Positions 17,581-42,896 of a DNA stretch of 47,525 nt are shown piece by piece. Under the pieces are notes generated by a model that saw only the letters and a list, made by a program, of their open reading frames with translations, did no database searches and was not told the origin of the DNA. The translations under genes and the position numbers were made by a program. The DNA is taken from assembly GCA_017631435.1 (NCBI GenBank), contig JAGBTG010000024.1, positions 1 through 47,525 of the forward strand, given 5' to 3'. This stretch comes from Bacteroidales bacterium (GTDB taxonomy: Bacteria > Bacteroidota > Bacteroidia > Bacteroidales > UBA932). Position 1 is the first letter of the stretch. Each line of letters opens with the position of its first letter.

Positions 17581-17971
17581 TTATCTATGAATCGTTTGTA
17601 TCCATAACAGTAGGGTACAGGGCCTTCAATATATTTCGTGGTTGGTGATGAATTGGTTCTCCGTTGATATCTGAACATTATATCCAGGTTGGGTATAGCC
17701 AAAATGAAAAAAGGGCAACCATTCCATCAATATAAGCGGGGAAATGGAGATTTTTGTGCTTGAAATTGGTAGAAAATGTATTTTAGGCAGGATTTGGGGC
17801 TTAATCCTGCTTGGAGTGGGTTGATTTTAGAATTTGAGCGGGAAAAGGGAGCTTTTCTTGCTTGGAATGGGTTTGAAATGTATTTTGAGCAGGAAATGAG
17901 GAGTTTTTCTGCTCGGAATGGAAAAGGGCAACCCATCATTTACTTTTGGGTCACCCTGTGGTCTGCTTTTG
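17581..17971. other. Gene-free region with degenerate tandem repeat before tRNA-Gly
   Basis: There is no convincing gene; a minus-strand frame at 17727-17939 only follows the repeat period (51 bp = 17 codons). The repeat array is at about 17737-17925, bracketed by AAAAGGGCAACC-type copies near 17709 and 17924. Confidence 0.6.
17737..17925. repeat. Degenerate 51-bp tandem repeat (about four units)
   Basis: Units share the pattern GAGC(G/A)GGAAA...GGAG-TTTTTCTTGCTTGGAATGGG...AAATGTATTTT and restart every 49-51 bp (GCGGGGA near 17736, GCAGGA near 17787, GCGGGA near 17838, GCAGGA near 17889). The unit start resembles the 3' end of the adjacent tRNA gene (GAGCGGAAAACGGG at 17971). Copies are imperfect and have no spacers, so this is not a CRISPR array. 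Confidence 0.65.
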
Positions 17972-38006: not shown

Positions 38007-39545
38007 TTATCCTTGTCCTTGAGATTTTACATCAATAGGGGCCTCCCAACTGTTCCAGCCGGTATGGGCCACCTCCCTAACAAACCATTTTCCGCCGCAT
38101 TTTGCATATATCTTATTCCCGATGAATGCAATCTCCTCCACCTGTCTTCCTTTTCCAGGAAGTGGAAGGATAGCCCTCACGCGGCCGTTCTGGTCACAAA
38201 CCTGTATCCCTATTGGGGTAGCAACATAAAGGTTCCCCTCTGTATCGAATGTCATATTGCCATACTTTGTATGGTTGTGGTTGTCTGTATTGTGCAGCCA
38301 GTAGAACTGCTGTCCTGCCTGCAAAGTGCCGTCGGGAGCAATAAGATAACTGATAAGCCAGTTGGAGTTCTTCTCCTGCGCAATCAGCAGCTTCCCGTTA
38401 GGGTAGATTGCAATCTCCTTCCCCGATGTTTCCAGGGTGTTCATCTTCACTGCCTTCTTTGTGCCCTTCCTAAGCAGATAAATCTCCCCCTCATTTGTGC
38501 TAATGTACTTGTCTCCGTTGTGCAACGCAAGCACCTTGTGAACGTTTTTCTTTAAAGTTACGTCGTCTCTTTGTACAATTAGCTGATTGTCAGGGGTAGT
38601 TTCAGACCACTGTTGGCCGTCTACAAGCAGCGACTGCAGCATGCCGTTCATGGATTTGCCGGTCTGGACCGGGGTGGGCCAGCCTCTCCAGAGCCAGCGC
38701 ATGGCGTCGGGGTAGGCGCGGGTGCCGTAGTAGATGCTGTGGGTGCCGCGGTCCCATTTGTAGTCGAATTCGTAGCCAGCAAAGTTGAGTGCAGAGGACA
38801 TGAGCTGGTTCTGCTCCCACCAGTCGCCAAAGATGTGGTTCCAGGTGTCGTTCACACCGTCCTGAAGGAAGATGCGGAGCGGTTTGGGCTCGGTCTTGCG
38901 GACAAGGGCAGGGTATTCGTTGCCGCCGCGCATGGCTACAAAGGTTCCAACGGAACTGTATACGCGGGCGAACAGGTCGGGCCTCTCCCAGGCAACGGTG
39001 AAGGCCGCTATTCCGCTGCTGCTGGCACCGGTGATGGCGCGGTCGTTGGGATTGTGGGAGATGAGGATCCTGTGTCCGTGGGGAGTCTCCAGATTCTCAA
39101 CCATTGGAATCACCTCCTCCTCAAGGAAGGTTGCCAGGCGGTTGTCGGTGCGGTCGAACTCGTTGCTGCGGTTGTAGCGGGCAACGGTGCCGTCTTGGTT
39201 GTGGCTCACTCCCGGCTGCAGGAAGATACCAATGGCTACAGGCATCTCGCCGGTGGCAATGAGGTTGTCAATCACGGTAATAGCCCCAAAAAGGTTGCCG
39301 TCGAGACCCACCACAAGGCAGGCAGGCTTTGTGCCGTCGTACTGTTTGGGGATGAATACCTGCCAGTCTCTGCTGGTGTTTGGGTATATCTTTGATTCTG
39401 TGATTGTTCCGCTGAGAATGCTTCCTCTAAGGCTGTCGGGAAGAGGAATGGTTGCAGGGTCCTTTGGGGTGGATGCATTGTGCTTGTTCTGGGCAAATGC
39501 GGTGGTGCAAAGGGTTGCAAGGAGTATGATGAGCAATCTTTTCAT
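38007..39545 (-). CDS. Secreted esterase fused to an SMP-30/gluconolactonase-like domain
   Basis: The start at 39545 is chosen because it begins the signal peptide MKRLLIILLATLCTTAFAQ; an upstream ATG adds 11 residues. Residues about 40-310 form an esterase D-type alpha/beta hydrolase with nucleophile motif GASSSGIAAF and the late His in GTHSIYYG. Residues about 320-512 resemble an SMP-30/gluconolactonase-type beta-propeller, with repeats such as YGNMTFDTEGNLYVATPIGIQVCDQNGRV. Together they could release and hydrolyse sugar-acid esters or lactones. The GntP-type permease gene next to it fits such a substrate. Confidence 0.8.
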   Translation of the reverse strand: MKRLLIILLATLCTTAFAQNKHNASTPKDPATIPLPDSLRGSILSGTITESKIYPNTSRDWQVFIPKQYDGTKPACLVVGLDGNLFGAITVIDNLIATGEMPVAIGIFLQPGVSHNQDGTVARYNRSNEFDRTDNRLATFLEEEVIPMVENLETPHGHRILISHNPNDRAITGASSSGIAAFTVAWERPDLFARVYSSVGTFVAMRGGNEYPALVRKTEPKPLRIFLQDGVNDTWNHIFGDWWEQNQLMSSALNFAGYEFDYKWDRGTHSIYYGTRAYPDAMRWLWRGWPTPVQTGKSMNGMLQSLLVDGQQWSETTPDNQLIVQRDDVTLKKNVHKVLALHNGDKYISTNEGEIYLLRKGTKKAVKMNTLETSGKEIAIYPNGKLLIAQEKNSNWLISYLIAPDGTLQAGQQFYWLHNTDNHNHTKYGNMTFDTEGNLYVATPIGIQVCDQNGRVRAILPLPGKGRQVEEIAFIGNKIYAKCGGKWFVREVAHTGWNSWEAPIDVKSQGQG

Positions 39546-40929: not shown

Positions 40930-41637
40930 TTAGAGTTTTTTGAGGAATTCTACAAGGGTATTTGCCATCAGTTGGGCTCCCTCGCTGGTAGGGTGGGTGC
41001 CGTCTGTGATATACGGATTGTAATATCCGGTATATTCCGGATGGGTTCCTTTGATTATCCTGTTTTCATGCGGGTTGATGCCGCTTAGGTTGTGCATGTC
41101 CACTACCGGAAGATTGTAGTATGCCGCCACCTCTTTAATGGCTTGGATCCACTCGTCCCACTGGTAAAGCACCCGGGCGTTGTTTTCTGGGGTATTTGGT
41201 AAGTGCGATTTCTCTGCGTTGAGCAACTTGATAGGGGTTAGGACAACAATTTTTGTCTCTTTGCCGGTTGTGCTGTATTTCTGTTTAAGGCCTTGCAGCA
41301 GGGTGTGCCATGCCCCGTAGAACGTATCCGTGCCGCGGTCTTCCATGGTGCCGAGTTCCACACCCAGCCTTACATCATTGGTGCCTCCGGTAACCGTTAC
41401 AAGATCTGCATCATCTGCCATCTCCACATATCTTTTGCACATGGGGGTGTTCTCCGGCAGGTTGGCAATTGTAGAATCAGATATTCCATGATTCTCAAAT
41501 TCCATATTGAGCATCTTTGCCGCCAGTGCCGCATAACTCTCCAGCTGCCCCGGATGCCCCGGATAATTGCGCGGAATGAACCCGTAAGTGATTGAATCCC
41601 CCAGCGCACAGTATTTCAGTTTTTTTGTTGAGGTCAT
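40930..41637 (-). CDS. SGNH/GDSL family hydrolase
   Basis: The 235-residue protein has block I ALGDSITYG (catalytic Ser), block III TGGTNDVRLG (Gly and Asn) and block V DGTHPTSEGAQLMA (Asp and His). It has no signal peptide, so it is probably cytoplasmic or exported by another route. Such enzymes are esterases or carbohydrate deacetylases. It is first in the operon with the permease and esterase, and its -7 box is at 41658-41665. Confidence 0.9.
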   Translation of the reverse strand: MTSTKKLKYCALGDSITYGFIPRNYPGHPGQLESYAALAAKMLNMEFENHGISDSTIANLPENTPMCKRYVEMADDADLVTVTGGTNDVRLGVELGTMEDRGTDTFYGAWHTLLQGLKQKYSTTGKETKIVVLTPIKLLNAEKSHLPNTPENNARVLYQWDEWIQAIKEVAAYYNLPVVDMHNLSGINPHENRIIKGTHPEYTGYYNPYITDGTHPTSEGAQLMANTLVEFLKKL

Positions 41638-41657: not shown

Positions 41658-41665
41658 CAAAGGTA
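41658..41665 (-). promoter_or_regulatory. -7 box TACCTTTG for the SGNH/GntP operon
   Basis: The minus strand reads TACCTTTG, a full TAnnTTTG match. It ends 20 nt before the ATG at 41637 and 12 nt from the cloverleaf-like structure that begins at 41678. Confidence 0.6.
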
Positions 41666-41677
41666 ACTCTTTTTTGG

Positions 41678-41802
41678 TTACGTTGTCTTTTTGTATATCT
41701 TCCTGATTCTCAGGAAGATAATTTTACAAAGTTTGCAAAAATTGCAAACTTTGTAAAATCAATTACTTGAGAATCAAGTAATTGTACAAAAAGACAACGT
41801 AA
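41678..41802. repeat. Perfect cloverleaf-like structure: 18-bp outer stem enclosing three hairpins
   Basis: The outer arms TTACGTTGTCTTTTTGTA (41678-41695) and its exact complement (41785-41802) enclose three abutting perfect hairpins. H1 is 41696-41720 (11-bp stem, loop TTC). H2 is 41721-41759 (18-bp stem, loop AAA). H3 is 41760-41784 (11-bp stem, loop GAA). No base is left unpaired at the junction and no mismatch occurs in 58 pairs. The tips of H1 (TGATTCTCA) and H3 (TGAGAATCA) are exact complements, so they could pair with each other. It fills the space between two divergent -7 boxes. Function is unknown: a mobile terminal structure, protein-binding cruciform or paired regulatory RNA are possible. 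Confidence 0.95.
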
Positions 41803-41813
41803 AAAAATTGTGT

Positions 41814-41821
41814 TATTTTTG
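41814..41821 (+). promoter_or_regulatory. -7 box TATTTTTG for the ATP-grasp-like gene
   Basis: TATTTTTG matches TAnnTTTG and ends 4 nt before the ATG at 41826, so transcription would start at or next to the initiation codon (leaderless). It lies 11 nt after the right outer arm of the cloverleaf-like structure. Confidence 0.5.
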
Positions 41822-41825
41822 TGGC

Positions 41826-42896
41826 ATGGAGAGCAGTGTCAAGTTTATTTTCAATCCGGAGCATGATTTGTGCCTGGCCAGTGGGGATGTGAATTTCATT
41901 CCGCCGACTGCGGCTGTGCGGTTTGCACAGGAAGGGAAGTGGATTGAAAGGTTCATGCGGGCGCCGGAAGGGATGCAAGCGGGTGGAGGTAATGATGCCG
42001 GGAAAATCGTTCCATGGGGATGGAATGCAGTGCTTAAACGGAAACTTATGGATGAGGGGTGGCCTCTGGAAGCGCTCCCTTCAGATGAGGAACTTGATTT
42101 CATTCGGGAGAATTCCCGCAGGGAATTGGCAGTGGAACTGTTGGAGAGAGTTCAGGGGGCAGGCGTGGAGTGCATACCTGCACCGGCCACCCCGGTCACC
42201 CCAGCCACCCCGGCAACAATCCTTCCGCATACCTACAGAACAATTGCCCACTCCATTGAAGAGATTGAATCCTTTCTCAGCTGTAATAGGAGGGTTGTAC
42301 TGAAAGCACCCTTGTCGGGAAGCGGAAAAGGGATAAGGTTTGTGACTGGAGAACTTATGGAGACTGACCGTGGCTGGTGCCGCAAAACACTGCAGAAACA
42401 GGGAGCGGTGATAGTGGAGCAGAGGATGGAGGTACAGCAGGAGTTTGCCATGCTGTTTGAGTGCACCCCCGCAGCTGAAAGGCCGTATGGAAATGTGGCT
42501 TTCAGAGGCTACTCAATGTTCTACGCAAGCAACGGCGCATACAAAGGAAACATCCTGGCATCAAATGAGCATATTGAAAACACACTTACCCGGTGGATTC
42601 CCAAAGGGATGCTGCATAAGGTGCAGGAGGAGATAGCATGTTGGTTGCAGGAAAAACTGCAGGGAAAATATACAGGATTCATAGGTGTGGACCAGTTCAT
42701 TTGTCCGCACAACGGCGCAATATTGTACAACCCCGCAATGGAAATCAACCAGAGGATGACAATGGGCCTGATAGCCAGAAATATATACGATTACCACAAA
42801 GAAGAATACTACCTTGGTGAAGGGACCCATTGCTTTGAACCGGAAAGGGGAATCATTTTGCTGCCTTGCTCCGGCTTACCACAAACACTCCTGTAA
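41826..42896 (+). CDS. ATP-grasp-like protein of unknown function
   Basis: The 356-residue protein starts MESSVKFIFNPEHDLCLASGDVNFIPP, a pattern I associate with a Bacteroidota hypothetical family, and contains VVLKAPLSGSGKGIRFV (ATP-grasp-like glycine-rich loop), QKQGAVIVEQRME and TGFIGVDQFICP...NPAMEINQRM (metal and ATP end). An ATP-dependent ligase is plausible; the substrate is unknown. A Pro/Ala/Thr linker (APATPVTPATPAT) is encoded by a short imperfect DNA repeat near 42180-42216. The 3' end overlaps the convergent EamA gene by 44 bp. Confidence 0.65.
   Translation: MESSVKFIFNPEHDLCLASGDVNFIPPTAAVRFAQEGKWIERFMRAPEGMQAGGGNDAGKIVPWGWNAVLKRKLMDEGWPLEALPSDEELDFIRENSRRELAVELLERVQGAGVECIPAPATPVTPATPATILPHTYRTIAHSIEEIESFLSCNRRVVLKAPLSGSGKGIRFVTGELMETDRGWCRKTLQKQGAVIVEQRMEVQQEFAMLFECTPAAERPYGNVAFRGYSMFYASNGAYKGNILASNEHIENTLTRWIPKGMLHKVQEEIACWLQEKLQGKYTGFIGVDQFICPHNGAILYNPAMEINQRMTMGLIARNIYDYHKEEYYLGEGTHCFEPERGIILLPCSGLPQTLL

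Follow-up and report, generated by a model that had tools for sequence, protein, structure and literature searches.

The 125-bp cloverleaf found between two divergent genes in the window (the whole 47,525-nucleotide stretch of Bacteroidales DNA that was analysed, part of genome G000) belongs to a dispersed repeat family, and we consider it likely to be a REPIN-like element, multiplied across the genus by an enzyme whose gene lies at another place in the genome, a RAYT-like Y1/HUH transposase. What was observed directly in the genomes compared is the structure, the family, the sites shared between species, the RAYT neighbourhood and the patterns in arms and terminators.

Structure and surroundings of the cloverleaf

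A base-by-base recheck bore out the perfect pairing of the original prediction: all 58 of 58 pairs in the four helices (Table 1) are Watson-Crick, every loop has 3 nt and no junction base is unpaired. With RNA parameters, the fold of the 145-nt stretch that holds the cloverleaf reaches -68.6 kcal/mol, the mean of shuffled sequences being -20.1 (z -15), and none of 200 shuffles was equally stable. The boxes that had been noticed on both sides were also found, as TAnnTTTG forms 12 and 11 bp outside the element ends; we take TAnnTTTG to be the Bacteroidetes -7 box. The GDSITYG motif in the product of the minus-strand flanking gene is presumably that of an SGNH-hydrolase-like protein. The window also carries a half element, whose in-frame reading on the minus strand is ..DNQLIVQRDDVT.. 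within the ORF that contains it, and a tandem repeat at 17735-17921 with a period of 102 and 1.8 copies.

Table 1. Features of the window cloverleaf, its surroundings and the RAYT-like genes beside related elements
Feature	Position	Strand	Description	Basis
Whole cloverleaf element (REPIN-like)	41678..41802	no strand		pairing, fold, arm pattern
Core unit, window copy	41680-41800		121 bp	arm motif
Outer stem	41678-41695/41785-41802		18 pairs	base-by-base recheck
Left arm	41678..41695	+	includes ACGTTGTCTTTTTGTA (REP-like conserved end)	arm pattern, alignment
Side hairpin 1	41696..41720	+	11 bp (41696-41706/41710-41720), loop TTC, tip TGAnnnTCA	base-by-base recheck
Central hairpin	41721..41759	+	18 bp (41721-41738/41742-41759), tracts TTTT..AAAA, hence not terminator-like	base-by-base recheck
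Side hairpin 3	41760..41784	+	11 bp (41760-41770/41774-41784), loop GAA, tip TGAnnnTCA	base-by-base recheck
Right arm	41785..41802	-	exact complement of left arm
TAnnTTTG form	41658-41665	-
TAnnTTTG form	41814-41821	+
Flanking gene	40930..41637	-	235-aa protein with GDSITYG; 42 bp gap to element core
Divergent flanking gene	41826..42896	+	356 aa; matched in 11 of 39 genus genomes
Half element	38560..38600	+	arm and decayed hairpin 1, inside a 523-aa minus-strand ORF
RAYT-like gene, G000	C36:52880-53683 (outside window)		89 bp from element 52671-52790	PF01797 search
RAYT-like gene, G007	C62		elements on both sides, at 83 and 86 bp	PF01797 search
RAYT-like gene, G006	C153		element at 50 bp	PF01797 search
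RAYT-like gene, G024	C13		element at 69 bp	PF01797 search

A dispersed family of near-constant length

Searches of the same genome and its relatives placed the structure in a dispersed family rather than leaving it a singleton. A 145-base query had many matches in G000 (both strands of the symmetrical element count), and the arm pattern located 21 two-armed copies there, mostly intergenic, which is the dispersed extragenic distribution of REPINs, along with ten further single arms at no more than one mismatch; at two mismatches the reversed-pattern control of the single-arm search was high. When the pattern was allowed up to 3 mismatches in 16 within regions around BLAST hits of five genomes, 60 two-armed elements were obtained (21 in G000, 17 in G007, ten in G022, seven in G024 and five in G006). 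Their anatomy comprises two facing arms of 16-18 nt, two side hairpins and a central hairpin. The length is exactly 121 bp in 45 of the 60 and 111, 112, 120 or 122 bp in the others, such that the family has the inverted conserved ends and the fixed-length spacer of REPINs. As this unit of about 121 bp is the repeat itself, the structure is unlikely to be the end of a larger transposon, which had been one suggestion.

A covariance model added 28 places from among the matches listed (85-148 bp, arms mostly paired), giving a wider set of 88 elements; all were detected by their arms, whether through BLAST, pattern or model, and the sets are biased toward conserved arms. By BLAST the family occurs in six of 39 genus genomes, and the model has matches in at least 17 of the 39, the same six being the strongest by far. 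The exact arm pattern had no match in viral contigs, and a virus origin was rejected for this absence. In a genome-contig collection, which may omit the window's own or very near genomes, the pattern was found in two stretches, both from the Bacteroidales MAG SIG149, and the element sequences there equal those of G024.

Some copies depart from the common form. Two-armed copies overlap ORFs in G000 (C3:74824) and at the same place in G007 (C20:46861). Two G007 elements of about 200 bp (L089 3715-3912 and L099 7389-7589) have similar inner stretches with GAAATA after both arms, and an 85-bp element of G006 (L299, C165:14868-14958) has both side hairpins and almost no central hairpin.

RAYT-like transposase genes beside the elements

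A search with PF01797 revealed RAYT-type genes for a Y1/HUH transposase next to elements in four species, G000, G006, G007 and G024, flanked in each by the same elements as expected of the cognate RAYT of a REPIN (Table 1). In G024, the edge of a second contig holds a match to the end of the RAYT gene together with another element. The proteins of G000, G006 and G007 scored 37.6-46.2 bits against a cut-off of 23, those of G006, G007 and G024 are 56-65% identical to the G000 protein, and an NHAH motif and a YILxN(P/A) motif with its tyrosine mark them as Y1_Tnp/HUH enzymes. Their best NCBIfam match was REP_Tyr_transpos, below its cut-off; with NF047646, seven of eight proteins reached 26.6-52.5 bits (the eighth was not listed) against a curated cut-off of 80. 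Because the NCBIfam cut-off was missed, we call the enzyme RAYT-like. A search by sequence for a relative of solved structure gave one match, at E 0.37 and outside the catalytic part.

Among the other genomes, G015 and G022 have elements and no close RAYT was found in them; the orthologue of PhoH, the neighbour of the RAYT gene, was likewise not found in either, so a gap in these MAGs is possible. G001 has a RAYT of the clade and no element among the matches listed.

The association extends to other arm families. Of 40 further Y1 loci of the genus, scanned with no shuffled control, ten carry, no more than about 350 bp from the gene, an inverted-arm structure of 95-139 bp whose arms differ from those of the window copy, and six of these (L135, L136, L138, L147, L150 and L153) resemble the cloverleaf by eye. 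In G049, a genome in one contig, three RAYT paralogues each have a different arm family alongside: one with eight near-full-length places, one with five, of which three are at the RAYT, and partial matches besides, and a third with only arm-length matches elsewhere. Outside the genus, 26 of 196 other genomes of the class had a match to the RAYT profile; 29 loci of these gave 20 inverted-repeat hits against five in crude shuffles, and by eye none was this cloverleaf.

Two loci of this set have further repeats. Downstream of a RAYT-like gene of G014 (L166 5332-5914, C1), inverted-arm elements of about 99 bp follow one another closely, at a period of around 300 bp, and other contigs carry further sets. 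In the RAYT-like protein at L138 3356-4459 of G049, KSEMEK-like repeats succeed one another in frame in the C-terminal part.

The inverted arms, the prevailing length of 111-122 bp, the dispersal and the presence of some copies inside genes would also suit a conventional MITE whose arms are recognised by a DDE transposase, the proximity of the RAYT being coincidental. We regard this as very unlikely, since the RAYT-like gene lies beside elements in four species, other arm families lie beside other RAYT-like genes, and no target duplication was recognised at the sites compared.

The window site in related species

Five species share an element at the window site. It lies between the same two genes in G006, G007 and G024, and in G022 next to the downstream gene that also borders the window copy; in G015 the place is taken by just a short hairpin built from its own arm type, with no interior. 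The interiors of G006, G007 and G024 at this site are 85-88% identical to one another and decayed, whereas the G000 interior, perfect in its helices, agrees with them at only 0.47-0.55, against a background of 0.46 +/- 0.06. Perfection of the pairing had been read as a sign of recent movement, gene conversion or selection, and the different, decayed interior of the relatives fits that reading. Since the G000 interior is unrelated to theirs, the window copy looks recently replaced: an old element seems to have been overwritten, the site receiving a new interior in G000, and its perfection is probably recent.

Arms and interiors between species

Over the 88 elements, arms agreed at 29.0 of 32 positions within a species, 26.8 between orthologous elements of different species and 25.6 between other elements of different species, and equal-length interiors agreed at 0.595 in orthologous pairs (n=24) against 0.49. 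The first 61 elements (one G006 element having been added and the G022 window-locus element left out, its arms being out of register) gave 32.1, 29.3 and 29.2 of 34 for the arms in the same order and, for interiors, 0.614 in orthologous pairs (n=16) against 0.49. Orthology thus left no signal in the arms of the 61 elements and a small one in those of the 88. From these figures, arms appear to follow species more than site and interiors to follow site, the concert of the arms being partial.

Arms also remain paired where interiors do not. At least 15 of 16 arm pairs are formed in 73 of the 88 elements, and decayed copies have 15.2 of 16 against 15.5 in intact ones. Of the 60 copies, 43 lack at least one intact side hairpin. 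In G007 an identical 16-nt arm stands on both sides of 17 of 19 elements (all 17 in the smaller set) regardless of the state of the interior, the remaining two being of other types; G006 and G024 have several arm types, mostly matched within one element, and G015 has a type of its own. One G024 element (L104 3429-3555, C62:27431) has left and right arms of different types, as if one arm had been exchanged, and several more mixed-arm elements occur in that genome. At one site G006 and G007 share both arms (32 of 32) and interior (0.90), and a transfer between them is perhaps possible, because the gene there is 95% identical.

That sites are shared between species, that length is near constant and that arms are kept while interiors decay would be expected of a host-owned chromosomal site, with arms bound by the RAYT or another protein, vertically inherited, selected and now immobile. 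Arm change on both sides at old sites, as at the window locus, where G006 and G007 share 28 of 34 arm positions and their interiors agree at 0.86, fits as well. Near-identical interiors at different G007 loci (C44:29897, C62:5488 and C62:13770) and the unrelated G000 interior at the window site point instead to copying, and several arm types coexist in G006 and G024, such that we think a host-owned site unlikely, although for old copies it overlaps with multiplication by the RAYT-like enzyme. The weaker arm concert of the 88 elements slightly lowered our confidence in the RAYT explanation and reduced that in the host-owned site further.

Covariation and choice of fold

In the 60-row alignment, 75.7% of cells are paired against 41-46% with slid partners, and 457 cells have two-sided changes against 248 +/- 14 in shuffles. 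The outer stem is 95% paired, with two-sided changes at 11 of its 18 pairs, and hairpin 1 occurs in eighteen different sequences with at least nine of ten inner pairs. With DNA parameters, the clover is favoured over the rod by a median of 11.2 kcal/mol in the 17 intact copies and the rod is ahead by 3.0 kcal/mol in the other 43; these differences are approximate, since two programs supplied the energies, one for duplexes (rod) and one for folding (clover).

A kissing interaction between hairpins 1 and 3 had been proposed from the 9-nt complementary tips of the window copy, but it is no feature of the family: the two loops are exactly complementary in three of 17 intact copies against 31 of 272 in the cross-copy control, and mean tip complementarity is 6.06 of 9 against 6.02 in that control. 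An integron attC site seems unlikely as well, the order of its end boxes being opposite to that of the GTT..AAC ends here.

Selection at the RNA level, for a structured RNA or an RNase III processing signal, would agree with the strong fold and with the many copies at gene ends, which may be transcribed. This explanation is highly improbable, considering that the covariance model matches both strands about equally among the matches listed, that interiors are free to decay and, as weak evidence, that G-U pairs are as rare as mismatches in side hairpins with at least nine of ten pairs (10 G-U and 13 mismatches to 397 Watson-Crick). The 37 Rfam matches up to E 5, mostly miRNA hairpins, all fell below gathering score, which spoke against a known RNA family and against the regulatory RNA first considered.

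The central hairpin and gene context

In the alignment of the first 60 elements, A-runs precede the central stem and T-runs follow it. We called a centre terminator-like when it had the order A-tract..T-tract and -9 kcal/mol or better, and assigned neighbours with a simple ORF caller. Such centres occur in 16 of 21 convergent copies (two inside genes and two with doubtful neighbours being counted), in nine of 13 tandem copies with the next start beyond 45 bp, in five of 18 tandem copies with the next start within 45 bp and in none of eight divergent copies (Fisher p 6e-5, an optimistic value since orthologous copies are not independent; seven of the eight divergent copies come from two loci). 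Median energies of the central hairpin in the same four contexts are -17.7, -15.6, -1.05 and -4.35 kcal/mol, and centres are stronger in the 38 of 60 elements at most 10 bp from a stop codon than in the remaining 22 (p 6.5e-5, optimistic for the same reason). With only eight of 60 copies between divergent genes, a position between divergent promoters is not the rule that the window had suggested. As modelled, the central hairpin resembles an intrinsic terminator for both directions, and centres of this form are frequent at gene ends and infrequent in operons and between divergent genes. The window copy is an exception in its tracts, and the window scan predicted no terminator there.

Behind the enolase, BCCP-like and PhoH genes, several element-free relatives have a hairpin-plus-T terminator at roughly the element's position and others have none. 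Terminator regions give the impression of replacement more than of plain interruption, and the sites compared yielded no clean empty site with a target duplication. In G000, the enolase and BCCP-like genes have TAA as stop codon, and the arm begins with its final A. The idea that these genes had lost codons to the element was discarded, as those of the element-free G017 end about as early. At another G000 locus (L084, C36:51171-52790), a PhoH-like gene stands between two elements and is inverted with respect to G011, G017, G019 and G021, where it lies in tandem after the upstream gene; recombination between inverted elements could be behind this inversion.

Least probable of the explanations weighed is a neutral relic, its palindromes perfected by template switching. 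The perfection of every helix in the window copy, and the decay of one or both side hairpins in the 43 copies mentioned above, would agree with it. The maintenance of arms in decayed copies and the dependence of the central hairpin on gene context argue against it.

Discussion

We return to the RAYT-like enzyme as the probable agent of multiplication, for which we infer cutting, movement, recognition by the enzyme and actual termination. When one strand is single, for example during replication, the element would fold into the clover, with the side hairpins at the bases of the arms. The enzyme would then recognise the TGAnnnTCA-tipped side hairpins and the cognate arm, cut, and join the element or one arm elsewhere, often into an older element or a gene end. 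Copies at the 3' ends of genes would keep the central hairpin with its A-tract and T-tract as a two-way intrinsic terminator, those within operons or upstream of genes would lose the terminator-like hairpin, and the arms would stay matched to each other and to the current arm types of the species. A stronger version is tentative and, on balance, doubtful: a domesticated transposase might rewrite arms in place while old interiors stay, many sites of a genome thereby tracking the arm types of its species, with the sites serving as replaceable two-way terminators and the clover as the DNA substrate. The partial arm concert of the 88-element sample made us somewhat less inclined to it. From the wider reading in the original prediction, the guess at mobile-like DNA is supported, and the kissing loops, the divergent-promoter rule and the regulatory RNA are not.

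Two observations are new, namely that arms resemble each other more within one species than across species at a shared site, and that a terminator-like centre is tied to gene context. The system bears on the action of RAYTs on REPINs and on the reasons for which bacteria retain them. The comparison of species separates the part that is kept, the arms, from the part that drifts, the interiors; several transposase-arm pairs within one genus could be used for specificity swaps; and transcription termination is suggested as a concrete and measurable benefit to the host. If the stronger version is true, the genome would hold mobile terminators throughout, under the care of one ssDNA-editing enzyme.

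Comparison with known systems

ERIC and the Rickettsia palindromic elements are palindromic sequences of about 100-150 bp that lie between genes or in frame inside them. The cloverleaf is like them in size, palindromy and position, and we know of no cloverleaf or RAYT link in either. In the literature on REPINs, RAYTs and Bacteroidetes repeats, mostly the main texts of open-access papers, we recognised no description of a cloverleaf REPIN-RAYT system.

The TnpAREP subclass 2.6 REPtrons, according to the part of PMC6006769 available to us, are mostly from Bacteroidetes and have atypical structures beside the gene with copies elsewhere in the genome, all of which recalls our elements; in that part no cloverleaf is described beside Bacteroidetes RAYTs. 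The enzymes here nevertheless lack the features given for the subclass, with YILxNP (YILRNA in G000) in place of YIH[QN]NP, an HUH-to-Y distance of 58 against a median of 82, and about 270 aa against 179 aa. Distance and length are near the values for subclass 2.1 (RAYT group 1), which the same text reports without REPs.

TIRtrons (TIRYT), as portrayed in the portion of PMC3733652 consulted, resemble the present system in that RAYT-like genes stand between long inverted repeats that differ from REPs; some of these repeats are self-complementary and some belong to moderately abundant families. A two-armed cloverleaf unit, as found here, is not among the features described in that portion. The CGTC-tagged REPs treated there share with our family the CGTC of the common G000 arm, the occurrence in Bacteroidetes and the location of REPs inside genes. 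They are characterised by an unpaired CGTC foot, a stem of 8-9 bp, a short tail and no dedicated transposase, whereas here CGTC is paired in the outer stem, varies (CGTT) and adjoins a RAYT, which sets the cloverleaf apart from that class.

The closest likeness is to REPIN-RAYT systems. RAYTs are treated as vertically inherited and REPINs as persistent in the sections of PMC8049555 that we used. Bertels and Rainey (2011; PMC3116915), in the parts drawn on here, describe REPINs with inverted conserved ends, a variable spacer of set length and compensatory changes, clustered beside RAYT genes with a different family for each RAYT, and each of these traits has its counterpart in our family. The elements here differ in lacking the GT[AG]G foot, their variable ends being mostly G-T-(A/G/T)-A-C-G, in the many copies with a terminator-like central hairpin, and in their host group, the Bacteroidales. 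In the legend of its Figure S11, that paper puts forward a 'clover' fold of lower stability as the form that the RAYT probably recognises. In our family arms and side hairpins are separate, so the outer stem and the clover form together, and of the two folds the clover has the greater stability. With its stable and covarying clover, this natural system offers a direct test of the 2011 clover model.
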